Origin: Thermosphaera sp.
Lineage (GTDB): Archaea; Thermoproteota; Thermoprotei_A; Sulfolobales; Desulfurococcaceae
DNA: 36,144 nucleotides
Direction: 5' to 3'
Assembly (NCBI GenBank): GCA_020833525.1
Contig: JAJHRV010000002.1
Coordinates: forward strand, 1-36,144
Part shown: positions 3,073-13,338 of the stretch, piece after piece
How positions within the stretch are numbered: the stretch's first letter is position 1
Layout: each line of letters begins with the position of its first letter
The notes under the pieces: model-generated
Told to the model about the DNA's origin: nothing
Database searches by the model: none
What the model saw: the letters and a program-made list of their open reading frames with translations, nothing else
Position numbers and translations under genes: made by a program

Positions 3073-3411
3073 GTGTTGACTACGCCCAGATTAGAGAGAG
3101 TAATTGGTTTAATTCTAATACTCGTTTTAGTTACATCCCTAAGTTTAGTAGTCGCGAGAGACATCTACTGGCAAGTTGCATCAATCTGTCTTCTAGTGGC
3201 AACGCTACTAGCTGCGACAAGGATAATAGATACTAGGCTAGATGCGAGAGAAGCCGCGGGATTCTATACATTAATACTCGCCGCCTTGACCACGGGGTCT
3301 GTGATAGGCGCTGTAGTCGCACAAACACTGTTAAGCACTCTCATTTCACTATCAATAGCCATTGTCTCAACCATATACTTCATTATTGCCTTAAAGGTGC
3401 GTGAGAGGTGA
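3073..3411 (+). CDS. Small four-helix membrane protein
   Basis: No family is recognised. The 112-residue product is almost entirely hydrophobic and shows four likely membrane spans at about residues 9-27, 30-50, 60-84 and 87-108, with short charged loops (ARDIY, DTRLDAREA) and a basic C-terminal end (KVRER), which by the positive-inside rule would face the cytoplasm. It begins with GTG at 3073 (TTG at 3076 is the alternative) and its stop overlaps the next start in a GTGA arrangement, so translation of the ATP-grasp gene is probably coupled to it. This pairing is the only hint to its role. Confidence 0.6.
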   Translation: MLTTPRLERVIGLILILVLVTSLSLVVARDIYWQVASICLLVATLLAATRIIDTRLDAREAAGFYTLILAALTTGSVIGAVVAQTLLSTLISLSIAIVSTIYFIIALKVRER

Positions 3412-4295
3412 AAATAGCCGTAATAGAGTATAGGAGGAGTCCTCCCCCAGCGGCTCAAGAACTCATGAGCGCTATCCAGGCGAGGGGGCATACACCTCTC
3501 TACTTAAAAGCACACATGCTCGACGCCAAGATCACTAGTAGGGGTGTTGAAGTATATCATGGAGCTGAATTAGTTGACGTAGACGCCGGCTTACTGAGGA
3601 ATATTGGGTTATATCTATCACTAGATACTTTTCTAAAGAGAATGGGTGTTGTAGAAGCACTAGCTAGTAAAATCCCCGTAGTCAATAGCCCAGCCTCAAT
3701 CATTGTAACGAGAGATAAGTGGAGGTGCCTCCTGAAACTATACCTCTCTAGTCTACCAGTGCCTGAAACACTCGTAACGGAAAACCCATTCTCGGCTATG
3801 AGGTTTACGAGGGAGAAGGGGAGAGTTGTGTATAAGCCAATAATTGGGAGCCTTGGATTAGGGAGTACTCTAATATACGACCCAGACATATCCTTCCACA
3901 TAACTAGGAGTCTTAAAAACCTTGGATTACCAAGCTACTACCAGGTATTCCTCGAGAAGCCTGGATACGACTATAGAGTATTTATTGTTGGAGACACTGT
4001 TATAGGGGCAATGAAGAGAGTTAGTAGTAGTTGGAAGACTAATATTGCCCAGGGAGCCGGTGGAGTCAAAGTGACTGAGGAGGAGGAGCCGGAGCCCTTC
4101 AAGATCGCTTTAAAGGCGACGAAGCACTTGGGGCTCGACTATGCAGGTGTAGATATTGCATATGACCTTGGGACTGAGAAATACTACCTACTCGAGGTTA
4201 ATGCCTTTCCGAACTGGGAGGGTTTAAGGAGGGCTACAGGGGTTAATCCACCGGACGCTATTGTGGAATACGTGATTATGAAGGCGAGAAAGTAG
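3408..4295 (+). CDS. RimK-like ATP-grasp ligase
   Basis: This 295-residue protein has the layout of RimK/LysX/MptN-type ATP-grasp ligases, which join an amino acid (often glutamate) to a carboxylate at the cost of ATP. An N-terminal Rossmann-like part (MKIAVIEYRRSPP) is followed by NSPASIIVTRDKW (about 95-107, typical for the family), the ATP-lid segment GRVVYKPIIGSLGLGS (about 138-153), EKPGYDYRVFIVGD and the C-terminal metal site with LEVNAFPNWEG. The acceptor substrate cannot be read from sequence; lysine/arginine biosynthesis carrier genes are not nearby. The GTG start overlaps the preceding stop by four bases. Close to its stop codon begins the TATA-like box assigned to the downstream guide RNA. 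Confidence 0.82.
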   Translation: MKIAVIEYRRSPPPAAQELMSAIQARGHTPLYLKAHMLDAKITSRGVEVYHGAELVDVDAGLLRNIGLYLSLDTFLKRMGVVEALASKIPVVNSPASIIVTRDKWRCLLKLYLSSLPVPETLVTENPFSAMRFTREKGRVVYKPIIGSLGLGSTLIYDPDISFHITRSLKNLGLPSYYQVFLEKPGYDYRVFIVGDTVIGAMKRVSSSWKTNIAQGAGGVKVTEEEEPEPFKIALKATKHLGLDYAGVDIAYDLGTEKYYLLEVNAFPNWEGLRRATGVNPPDAIVEYVIMKARK

Positions 4296-4303
4296 ATATA
4301 TTA
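4294..4303 (+). promoter_or_regulatory. TATA-like box for the guide RNA at 4329
   Basis: The sequence agatatatta overlaps the stop codon of the ATP-grasp gene. Archaeal transcription starts about 25 bases downstream of the box centre, which would place the 5' end near 4322-4326, just before the C box at 4329. That spacing is what is expected for a short C/D box RNA transcript. No transcript data are available. Confidence 0.45.
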
Positions 4304-4323
4304 GTCTTTTGCAAAATGGTAAT

Positions 4324-4380
4324 AATCGGTGATGAATAGTAAACCGCCTGAGTAGTGAAGAGGAGCTCTCATCCTGACTA
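4324..4380 (+). ncRNA. Candidate C/D box sRNA (2'-O-methylation guide)
   Basis: All four boxes are visible in order: C box GTGATGA (4329-4335), D' box CTGA (4348-4351), C' box GTGAAGA (4355-4361, one change from consensus) and D box CTGA (4374-4377). The two guide spacers are both 12 nt (4336-4347 and 4362-4373), and D' to C' is 3 nt, which is the regular architecture of archaeal guides that bind L7Ae, Nop5 and fibrillarin. I could not match either guide (atagtaaaccgc, ggagctctcatc) to a remembered rRNA or tRNA segment, so targets are open. The RNA ends where trm1 begins, and the same transcript may serve both. Ends are estimates. Confidence 0.72.
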
Positions 4381-5592
4381 ATGCTTTGCGTGTCTGCAAT
4401 GACGTATTATAGGAGTGAGCAGGTTATTGAGGAGGGCCTTGCAAAGGTAATTGTTCCCAGGTTTGAGTACTATAGGAGACCAGATGGAAGGTTAGAACCT
4501 GCGTGGATGCCTGTATTCTACAACCCACAAGCCGTCTTGAGCAGAGATCTCACAGTCCTCTTCCTTAGAGTTGTACTTGGCGGTAGAGACTACTTCTTCA
4601 TAGACTCTCTCTCTGGGACTGGGGTGAGAGGTATAAGGATTGCGCTTGAAGTTGGCGGCCGAGGAATACTCAACGATGTAGATCCTAGGGCATACTATTA
4701 TACCAACAAGAATATAAAGCTAAACAAACTAGCTGGGAGACTAGAGGCGTTCAATAGTGAAGCAAACTCACTACTAAATAACCTAGTGGTAACAGGTGTT
4801 GTTCCAGACTACGTTGACGTAGATCCATATGGCTCGCCAATACCACACATAGACTCTGCTTTGAAATCCCTTGGAAGAGAGGCATATTTAGGAGTAACAG
4901 CTACAGATACAGGGCCTCTATCCTGTACATATCCACGTAAGACACTAGCTAGATATTGGAGTAAATGCATTAAACTAGATTTTGAAAAAGAATTCGCTTC
5001 CAGACTATTGATCTCCAATATCGCACTCAGAGCAGCTGCCCTAGAGATAAGTCTAAAGCCGCTTATAACCCTTGTTTACAAGTACTATGTGAGAGTTTTC
5101 TTCCAGGCTAGAAGAAGCGCCGTTGAAGCATATAAAACAATCAACAATTGCACTGGATACCTATGGTACTGTACAAACACTATTGAGAGGGGATTTACTA
5201 AGAACCCCGAAGAAGTGGGCTTCAAGTGTAGCGATGGCTCTAAACCAGTTGTTCTAGGTCGCTTGTGGACCTGTAATATAATAGACCCCGAAGTAGCCTC
5301 CAAAATGCAGGCCTCCATAGGTGAATTACCGTGGATTAGTAGCTTATCTAGAGGAGTCCTAGAGATCTTGGCCCAGGAATCCATGATCAACGCTCCCTAC
5401 TATAGACTTGATAAACTCTGCTCAATACTAAAAATAAACATGCCGAGCACTATTAGAGTTATCAAGAGACTCAGAGAAATGGGCTGGATTAGCTCTAGAA
5501 CACACATGGATCCCCGGGGAGTTAAAGCCAGTGCAGACTACGGTGAACTAGTAGAAGTACTGAAGAGTATGTCTCAGCAGCATACGACGTAA
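4381..5592 (+). CDS. trm1: tRNA (guanine26-N2)-dimethyltransferase Trm1
   Basis: Trm1 methylates G26 of tRNA with S-adenosylmethionine. The 403-residue protein starts with the family-typical segment EEGLAKVIVP, has the SAM-binding loop DSLSGTGVRGIR (about 78-89), the acidic strand end with ILNDVDPRAY, and the signature motif VDVDPYGSPIPHID (about 140-153). A C-terminal winged-helix-like part (YRLDKLCSILKI..STIRVIKRLREMGWI) and cysteines at CTNTIERGF and FKCSDGSK fit the family's C-terminal domain. ATG at 4381 and ATG at 4399 are both possible; 4399 gives MTYYRSEQ and looks closer to the usual start. Neither has a well-spaced Shine-Dalgarno sequence, because the leader is occupied by the guide RNA. 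Confidence 0.93.
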   Translation: MLCVSAMTYYRSEQVIEEGLAKVIVPRFEYYRRPDGRLEPAWMPVFYNPQAVLSRDLTVLFLRVVLGGRDYFFIDSLSGTGVRGIRIALEVGGRGILNDVDPRAYYYTNKNIKLNKLAGRLEAFNSEANSLLNNLVVTGVVPDYVDVDPYGSPIPHIDSALKSLGREAYLGVTATDTGPLSCTYPRKTLARYWSKCIKLDFEKEFASRLLISNIALRAAALEISLKPLITLVYKYYVRVFFQARRSAVEAYKTINNCTGYLWYCTNTIERGFTKNPEEVGFKCSDGSKPVVLGRLWTCNIIDPEVASKMQASIGELPWISSLSRGVLEILAQESMINAPYYRLDKLCSILKINMPSTIRVIKRLREMGWISSRTHMDPRGVKASADYGELVEVLKSMSQQHTT

Positions 5593-7534: not shown

Positions 7535-8242
7535 TTACCTCTTTCTATGATACCTTGCAAGGATCATTGCATGGTCTTTATCGTATGGCTCTAAGTGGAC
7601 TACACTAACGATCTCGAATCCCCTTTCCTTCAATGTATTGATCTCCCTCTTGTAGATCTCACTTGGCTCTTTGGTTACATCAATACTCCTCGCTTTAATA
7701 GCTAGTAGCAAGTATCCACCATCCTTCAAGAACATATCCGCGTTGTCGGCTACTATTGATGCTTGCTCGGGTTGAGCTATATCAGCGTATATTCCATCTA
7801 CGAGTTCAACTACGTGGCGGTACTCCTGGGGCTTACGTGCATCAGCTAGAATTGGGTACAAGTTCTTCCTAACCTCGGCGACCATGATGAACTCCCTCAT
7901 CACTCTAGGTGCTACGTCGAGTCCATAGATTCTCCCCTTGGAGCCGATGATGTCTGATATATGACTAGCCGTAGTGCCTGAAGCTACACCGAGGTAGAGT
8001 ATTTTATCTCCCTCGGATATAGGTTGATCAGCTAAACCATTCAATAACGCACCAGCAAGTTTGCTCCTAAAAGCATTCCACTCTCGGTACTCTACGCCCT
8101 CGAGCTTAAAGAGCCTCTCACCGTAGACTCTGTGCCCAGGTACTAGGTTTTTAGTGGCTAATCTAATGCCACCGTCTTCTAACTCCACTACATATACTCC
8201 TCTATATTTATCATGGGGTTTAATCGATACAGGCATAGCCAA
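7535..8242 (-). CDS. flpA: Fibrillarin, rRNA/tRNA 2'-O-methyltransferase
   Basis: Fibrillarin is the SAM-dependent methyltransferase of C/D box ribonucleoproteins. The 235-residue product has the archaeal N-terminal strand region ([22 protein letters not shown]), the SAM loop [18 protein letters not shown] (about 84-101), DVAPRVMRE after the second strand, and [11 protein letters not shown] (about 150-160) with the catalytic Asp region, followed by [13 protein letters not shown]. Length equals that of other archaeal fibrillarins. It follows Nop5 by about 20 bases on the minus strand, the arrangement seen in most archaea, so the two proteins of the particle are co-expressed. Guide-RNA candidates lie at 4324, 13280 and 26598. 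Confidence 0.96.
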
Positions 8243-8263
8243 CTCTAATCACCCCAATCAATA

Positions 8264-9487
8264 CTATTTCTTCCTCTCCCTCTTTTTCCTCTCCCTCTCC
8301 ACTGGTTTCTCAGGTCTAGGTGGTGGTTTTGAATAGAGCTTCTTGACTTCGTCAACCCTCTTCTCGAATTCCTCCACTAGCTTGTCACCAATGTATCTAC
8401 CCGTAAAGTAGTCTACTTTAGCGGCTATTGCTAGTTTAGCTGCAAGAGCCCTAGCAATTTTACCCCTCTGCCACCTGGGGCTTTTATGGATTGCTGGATG
8501 CTGAAAGATCACGCCGTGCTTAGGTGGCTTACCACCAGTCCTTAGAGCCCTAAATAACGCCTTCTCTGCGCCGAGTACTTGAATAGTGCTAGCCGGTAGT
8601 TTAGCTAGTTTCTCGAGGCCTCCAGCAATACTCATAAGTCTTGCACCTAGTTTAGGCCCTACGAGGGCAACAATATTTGGCGCCACCTCCTTCATTACCG
8701 TGTCAATGTACTCATCAAGGGTTGCTCTAAGCCTATACAAGTCCAGTATAATGCCAGCCAATACCGCTATGTAGTCTAGGTCGAAATCACTTAAGTCTGC
8801 ACCAATACTCTTAGCTGCGGCATCTGCTATCTTAGAAGACCTCTCCTCGGATAAACCTAGTTTACGCAAGTTATCCACAGTGAAGTTCCCTCTATGTCTA
8901 AGCTCGTGGACAAACCTAGCGTACTCCTCGTGGTCTCTAACAAGTTCGTCAAGCTCGGGGAAATGCACGCTATACCATTCCCTAAGCCTCGCAATGTAGA
9001 GGTTTATTGTTCGATCAATATCGTCGATAGCTCTAATCGCCTGCACAGCGAGTAAGTCTCTCTTTTGAGCCTCTCTCCTCAACTTCCTCCTCGTATACTC
9101 CATCATTACCTCGTGGAGCTTAGCGAAAAACTCCTCTTGGGAGGATGCGAAGCCGTATCTAACTGCTAGTTCTGGCAGTAGGGATCTAATGTAGAGAGCC
9201 TTGGAGTTACCTGGCTTTACCTCGGGGATTAACCCAGCTTGAGACACTGCTTTCGCTGTACCATAGTGTTCTACAACAACGTTTAAATAGCCTTTCTCCT
9301 TGATTTTAGCAACTGCTTTTTCATGTATGGGTGTTACTTCGCCTCTCTCAACGCTAATCAAGTACTCCACTAAGTCGTCTAGTCTACTGGGTGTTTGAAT
9401 AAAATCCAATATTTCATCGTTATCGCTCACTAGTATAATTCCAAATGGAGCCTCTACGAAATAGACTTTACTCTGCTGCAGAGACAT
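8264..9487 (-). CDS. nop5: Nop5 (Nop56/58 homologue), C/D box RNP scaffold
   Basis: The 407-residue protein bridges the L7Ae-bound guide RNA and fibrillarin. The N-terminal fibrillarin-binding domain (about 1-110) is followed by the coiled-coil stretch (about 130-255) and the NOP domain (about 265-375) with the family signature NIVALVGPKLGARLMSIAGGLEKLAKLPASTIQVLGAEKAL split over two halves and GVIFQHPAIHKSPRWQRGKIARALAAKL. The C-terminus is a lysine/arginine-rich tail (EKPVERERKKRERKK), common in hyperthermophile Nop5. It starts at ATG 9487 and shares an AT-rich divergent promoter region with S30e. Confidence 0.96.
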   Translation of the reverse strand: MSLQQSKVYFVEAPFGIILVSDNDEILDFIQTPSRLDDLVEYLISVERGEVTPIHEKAVAKIKEKGYLNVVVEHYGTAKAVSQAGLIPEVKPGNSKALYIRSLLPELAVRYGFASSQEEFFAKLHEVMMEYTRRKLRREAQKRDLLAVQAIRAIDDIDRTINLYIARLREWYSVHFPELDELVRDHEEYARFVHELRHRGNFTVDNLRKLGLSEERSSKIADAAAKSIGADLSDFDLDYIAVLAGIILDLYRLRATLDEYIDTVMKEVAPNIVALVGPKLGARLMSIAGGLEKLAKLPASTIQVLGAEKALFRALRTGGKPPKHGVIFQHPAIHKSPRWQRGKIARALAAKLAIAAKVDYFTGRYIGDKLVEEFEKRVDEVKKLYSKPPPRPEKPVERERKKRERKK

Positions 9488-13227: not shown

Positions 13228-13279
13228 CGATGAGGAGTACTCCCGACAATGAATAGTGATTGAAAGGCATTTGACCGAG

Positions 13280-13338
13280 CAAATATGATGAAAACATGGT
13301 TTAATGAACTGGTGATTAAGCACGAGCGTACTGATTAT
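13280..13338 (+). ncRNA. Possible C/D box sRNA (weaker candidate)
   Basis: In the gap after gatE a perfect C box ATGATGA (13285-13291) and a D box CTGA (13331-13334) are 50 bases apart end to end. Between them CTGG (13309-13312) could be a D' box and GTGATTA (13312-13318) a C' box, leaving a standard 12-nt guide agcacgagcgta before D. The D' and C' boxes touch without spacer, the first spacer is 17 nt, and no clear TATA box precedes it, so this is less regular than the candidates at 4324 and 26598. Targets not recognised. Confidence 0.38.

Follow-up and report, generated by a model that had tools for sequence, protein, structure and literature searches.

The 36,144-nucleotide stretch of Thermosphaera sp. 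DNA analysed here (hereafter the window) very probably encodes a double-guide C/D box sRNA that is predicted to guide methylation of A2469 and U2491 in 23S rRNA, that was once located at the 3′ end of a RimK-like ATP-grasp ligase gene, and that was later detached from this gene and gained trm1 as its downstream neighbour. Positions 4329-4377 of the forward strand form a complete archaeal C/D box sRNA, with C box, guide, D′ box, spacer, C′ box, guide and D box in that order. This sequence is a real C/D guide RNA, and its predicted rRNA targets are well supported. The relevant features, in window coordinates, are:

3408-4295, forward strand: RimK-like ATP-grasp ligase gene (PF08443), with its stop codon 33 nt before the C box
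4293-4304, forward strand: weak TATA-like stretch TAGATATATTAG that overlaps the stop codon of the ATP-grasp gene; candidate sRNA promoter, unsupported by the tRNA-promoter matrix
4329-4335, forward strand: C box GTGATGA, a perfect match to RTGATGA; TGATGA is invariant in seven aligned congeners
4336-4347, forward strand: D′ guide ATAGTAAACCGC, 12 nt, pairing with 23S rRNA GCGGUUUGCUAC; predicted target U2491 (E. coli numbering)
4348-4351, forward strand: D′ box CTGA
4352-4354, forward strand: D′-C′ spacer of the k-loop type, 3 nt here and in every aligned congener
4355-4361, forward strand: C′ box GTGAAGA, one mismatch to RTGATGA; GTGACGA, ATGACGA or GTGATGA in congeners
4362-4373, forward strand: D guide GGAGCTCTCATC, 12 nt, pairing with 23S rRNA GGUGAGAGCUCC; predicted target A2469
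4374-4377, forward strand: D box CTGA, invariant in congeners
4381-5592, forward strand: trm1, tRNA dimethylguanosine methyltransferase (PF02005); first ATG at 4381, likely true start at ATG 4399
7535-8242, reverse strand: fibrillarin, the C/D RNP methyltransferase (PF01269, E 2e-104)
8264-9487, reverse strand: Nop5, the C/D RNP scaffold (PF01798, E 1e-74)

The initial annotation had described four ordered boxes and two 12-nt guides from the letters alone, and all of them are present. A strict scan of both strands, allowing at most one mismatch overall and guides of 11-13 nt, returned 4329-4377 as the sole site in the window and none in 150 simulated first-order Markov windows of the same dinucleotide make-up. 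The box order, the guides of about 12 nt, the short D′-C′ spacer and the complementarity that places an rRNA target at the fifth nucleotide from D or D′ are those of archaeal C/D box sRNAs, as is retention in relatives. Boxes and guides are kept in all eight genomes of the genus, and the congener alignment has 36 invariant columns, including both guide cores.

Both guides find partners in the 23S rRNA of the window's own genome (L035) and of its congeners. The D guide pairs with GGUGAGAGCUCC through 11 Watson-Crick pairs and one G-U pair of 12, and the D′ guide with GCGGUUUGCUAC through 10 Watson-Crick pairs and one G-U pair of 12; the two sites are 22 nt apart. When shuffled guides were compared against 23S and 16S rRNA, they equalled the real ones in 0.25% and 1.2% of cases, and both guides were matched jointly in one of 20,000 trials, a count that leaves out the 22-nt closeness of the sites. 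Target numbers were obtained by alignment to the E. coli K-12 rrlH 23S rRNA followed by the fifth-nucleotide rule, which predicts 2′-O-methylation at A2469 (D guide) and U2491 (D′ guide). Both nucleotides belong to helix 89, which leads into the peptidyl transferase centre, as is established for the E. coli structure. The register is constant in each family compared, with A2469 and U2491 as predicted targets in 15 of the 15 genomes that had a comparable sRNA and rRNA. Position 2467 of the rRNA is C opposite a guide G in Sulfolobaceae and U opposite a guide A in the window genus and in genome G183, and these changes are compensatory. Guide-target co-variation is nevertheless incomplete, because several other Desulfurococcaceae genera have a guide A opposite an rRNA C at 2467, which leaves a mismatch close to the duplex end. 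The search of both guides against rRNA and tRNA that had been proposed for this site thus yielded two 23S sites, whereas no convincing match was found among 45 tRNAs. The tRNA and sRNA surveys covered individually fetched loci. In our literature search, no statement on methylation of A2469 or U2491 was found; a chaperone role and dual guides whose targets come close together once the rRNA is folded have both been described (PMC4644070).

The site would encode an sRNA of about 55 nt. If it is expressed, as we infer, L7Ae and Nop5 would bind the C/D and C′/D′ kink-turn motifs, and fibrillarin would methylate A2469 via the D guide and U2491 via the D′ guide, on the two strands of helix 89. The paired binding of both guides may also help helix 89 to fold. 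The sRNA is probably cut from a longer transcript, with its ends trimmed around the assembled RNP. The fibrillarin and Nop5 genes are present 3 kb from the sRNA gene (7535-9487, reverse strand), and seven of the genus's eight genomes have fibrillarin close to trm1. Two more C/D-like RNAs lie in tandem at 13230-13334 (forward strand), directly after the gatE stop codon. The first reads ATGAGGA...CGA and the second ATGATGA...CTGA, and they are kept in congeners (L194, L195, L196 and L198). Their D guides pair with 23S rRNA GCCAAATGCCTT (first RNA) and AACGCTCGTGCC (second RNA). The 16S and 23S genes at the rRNA loci of the window genome and of G005 (L043, L044 and L033) are far longer than the models (in G000, 2537 bases against 1478 model positions), a sign of possible rRNA introns.

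The sRNA is widespread in the order. At E ≤ 0.01, a sequence-only covariance model built from seven congeners detected it in 114 of the order's 214 genomes; a broader model, applied to 229 genomes of the class at E ≤ 0.001, detected it in 122. When the whole phylum was searched, matches outside the order were few and mostly weak, and the family is therefore largely confined to the order. Of the two features whose conservation was to be checked, the boxes are kept in relatives, whereas their closeness to trm1 is confined to the genus among the loci examined. Box order, size and guide cores are the same in Rfam sR17 (RF01144) as in the window sRNA family, and a Sulfolobaceae relative (L087) passes the sR17 cut-off with 37.2 against 36 bits. 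The window copy, in contrast, scores 18.0 bits, below the gathering cut-off of 36, and an Rfam search of the window at the gathering threshold gave no match, so that the tie between the window sRNA and sR17 rests on the covariance models built here. The sR17 match is also among the grounds on which we infer that family f11 is Sulfolobaceae and f1 Desulfurococcaceae. The name itself has been reused, since the sR17 of N. equitans targets 16S rRNA (PMC4644070). In several genera, hairpins of differing sequence replace the 3-nt D′-C′ spacer (L083, L085, L088, L093, L096, L101 and L121; one example is the L093 hairpin, AACCCCTACTCGTAAATAGGGGTT), reminiscent of a k-loop that has become a stemmed kink-turn.

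The most persistent neighbour of the sRNA is the upstream RimK-like gene. It overlaps the sRNA or ends at most 60 nt before it, on the same strand, in 78 of the 90 loci read, 20 loci with variant boxes that the box pattern missed having been located from covariance-model coordinates. In 36 of the 78 linked loci, from families f1, f4, f10 and f11, the C box contains the RimK-like stop codon TGA in an identical register. The linkage extends to five families and was not seen in the members of f6, f8 and f9 that were examined. Two of three genomes of genus g10 have a further gene inserted upstream of the sRNA, after the RimK-like gene; at L068 and L073 of this genus, an opposite-strand gene separates the two by 1.3 kb. 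The RimK-like proteins of distant families share 33-48% identity, and were matched by tblastn rather than by a formal orthology test.

The polarity of the change was read from a maximum-likelihood tree of the RimK-like proteins, which was midpoint rooted and contains one doubtful long branch (G009). The window genus (g1) and genus g6 form a group (95/94 support) nested within successive overlap-bearing lineages, and in both genera the sRNA is detached from the RimK-like stop codon by 33-60 nt. Because the detached lineages are nested within overlapping ones, overlap came first in this portion of the tree, and a single detachment in the shared ancestry of g1 and g6 is the simplest account. The ancestor of the linked families of the order would thus have carried the sRNA at the 3′ end of the mRNA for the RimK-like ATP-grasp ligase. 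Along the branch shared by g6 and the window genus, the sRNA would have shifted 33-60 nt beyond the stop codon, and in the window genus trm1 would then have come to lie downstream. The shift past the stop codon and the arrival of trm1 would explain why the sRNA takes up the greater part of the intergenic space that separates the RimK-like gene from trm1.

Both the ancestral and the window arrangements are of known kinds, since both types of overlap have been reported. According to the review PMC7994747 (citing Tripp 2017), 25% of archaeal C/D genes overlap the 3′ end of a gene, the stop codon often falling within the C box; in 7% the overlap is with a 5′ gene end, and it lowered reporter expression. 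The arrangements seen here resemble these in having a 3′ overlap with the stop in the C box and a 5′ arrangement with the start after the D box. They differ from the overlaps in that review because one orthologous sRNA retains a single overlap partner across several families before shifting away from it. Our literature search returned no mention of the RimK-like/sRNA linkage, and we did not find a description of one overlap that persists through several families and is later dissolved.

How the sRNA is made is a sub-question of the proposed history. A promoter matrix was built from 40 tRNA upstream regions of the genus, in which tRNA promoters have a median score of 11.3 bits. The promoter that the initial annotation had predicted for the RNA fared poorly, because the window's TATATTA stretch, at the expected distance from the sRNA, scores -3.2 bits. 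The same place in congeners, 34-36 nt before the C box, scores 6.8 bits in G004, 7.2 in G006 and 4.7 in G007. G007 has, in addition, a strong TATA box (9.4 bits) positioned for trm1 alone. Co-transcription of the sRNA with trm1 is therefore plausible in the window species, but no rule of the genus.

It is quite possible, though short of probable, that the window sRNA has no promoter of its own and is produced by read-through transcription of the RimK-like gene, which ends 33 nt upstream, with trm1 as the next gene. Overlap with the RimK-like gene is the ancestral arrangement, no tRNA-grade TATA box precedes the window copy, and the review PMC7994747 describes most archaeal C/D RNAs as processed from longer transcripts. 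The same review (citing Tripp 2017) gives an own TATA-like motif for about 20% of archaeal C/D genes. However, G004, G006, G007, g6 (G024) and g10 have TATA-like sites of about 4 to 7 bits 34-39 nt before the C box, which is the right spacing for transcription to start just before the C box.

A closer bond between the sRNA and trm1 had also been proposed, namely that the guide RNA is merged with the trm1 leader. trm1 was located in 60 of the 61 genomes searched, the window's own included. The sRNA lies directly upstream of it in the window and in all six congeners with upstream sequence; in the eighth genome of the genus, the two lie on separate contigs, each at a contig end, which would fit a break in the assembly between them. 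Among 22 trm1 loci fetched from other genera, none has the sRNA upstream. trm1 is thus found downstream of the sRNA only in the window genus, and the linkage beyond close kin expected of a 5′ leader regulatory RNA of trm1 was not found.

The start of trm1 also needs correction. A start codon 11 residues before a conserved EGL is shared by six of seven genomes (the window, G004, G002, G007, G006 and G005), and given these congener N-termini, ATG 4381 is a less likely start than ATG 4399. The boxes had been said to end 4 bases before the first ATG; the D box in fact ends 3 nt before ATG 4381, and the likely start at 4399 is 21 nt on. The distance from the D box to the likely start in six genomes is 21, 21, 25, 46, 37 and 36 nt, with 21 nt in the window and G005. 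The remark that trm1 has no well-placed Shine-Dalgarno sequence holds for the window and for G005, whereas G004, G002 and G007 have one. The sRNA, the sRNA with the trm1 start, and the trm1 start region folded no more stably than shuffled sequences, and thus no conventional leader structure is indicated.

What stands of the proposed merger is the adjacency within the genus and the lack of a strong separate trm1 promoter in the window; a special functional link does not follow, since the adjacency is absent from the other genera examined. The merger is a lineage-specific adjacency, local and more recent. The sRNA may be processed from the trm1 mRNA or control it, but a regulatory role is unsupported and, on the evidence gathered, unlikely. 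The full version, in which both genes share one promoter, the RNP is excised and RNP assembly governs the level of Trm1 translation, is accordingly improbable. It draws on the likely start 21 nt past the sRNA in the window and G005, without a Shine-Dalgarno sequence or a strong intervening promoter, on the adjacency maintained across the genus, and on the nearly leaderless trm1 mRNA that cutting after the D box would give. Against it, the adjacency is limited to one genus, gap length and Shine-Dalgarno sequence vary, a strong TATA box is placed for the trm1 start in G007, the window sRNA has no strong promoter, and no known logic joins methylation of A2469 and U2491 to that of tRNA G26 or G10.

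Similarly doubtful is a functional reading of the ancestral overlap, in which the RimK-like enzyme and the rRNA guide would be mutually exclusive products of one transcript, a coupling broken in the window lineage and re-formed with trm1. Because the stop codon sits in the C box, excision of the sRNP would then remove the end of the RimK-like mRNA. That the boxes are a chance pattern without function is practically negligible, against their absence from the simulations, the order-wide conservation and the match of both guides to adjacent rRNA sites.

The preferred history offers a clear case of a guide RNA gene that was attached to one protein gene through several families, was then detached and acquired a new neighbour, while its two predicted rRNA targets stayed unchanged throughout the switch. 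For many archaea, the guides predict two methylated nucleotides next to the peptidyl transferase centre; culturable Sulfolobaceae are among these archaea and would allow a measurement.
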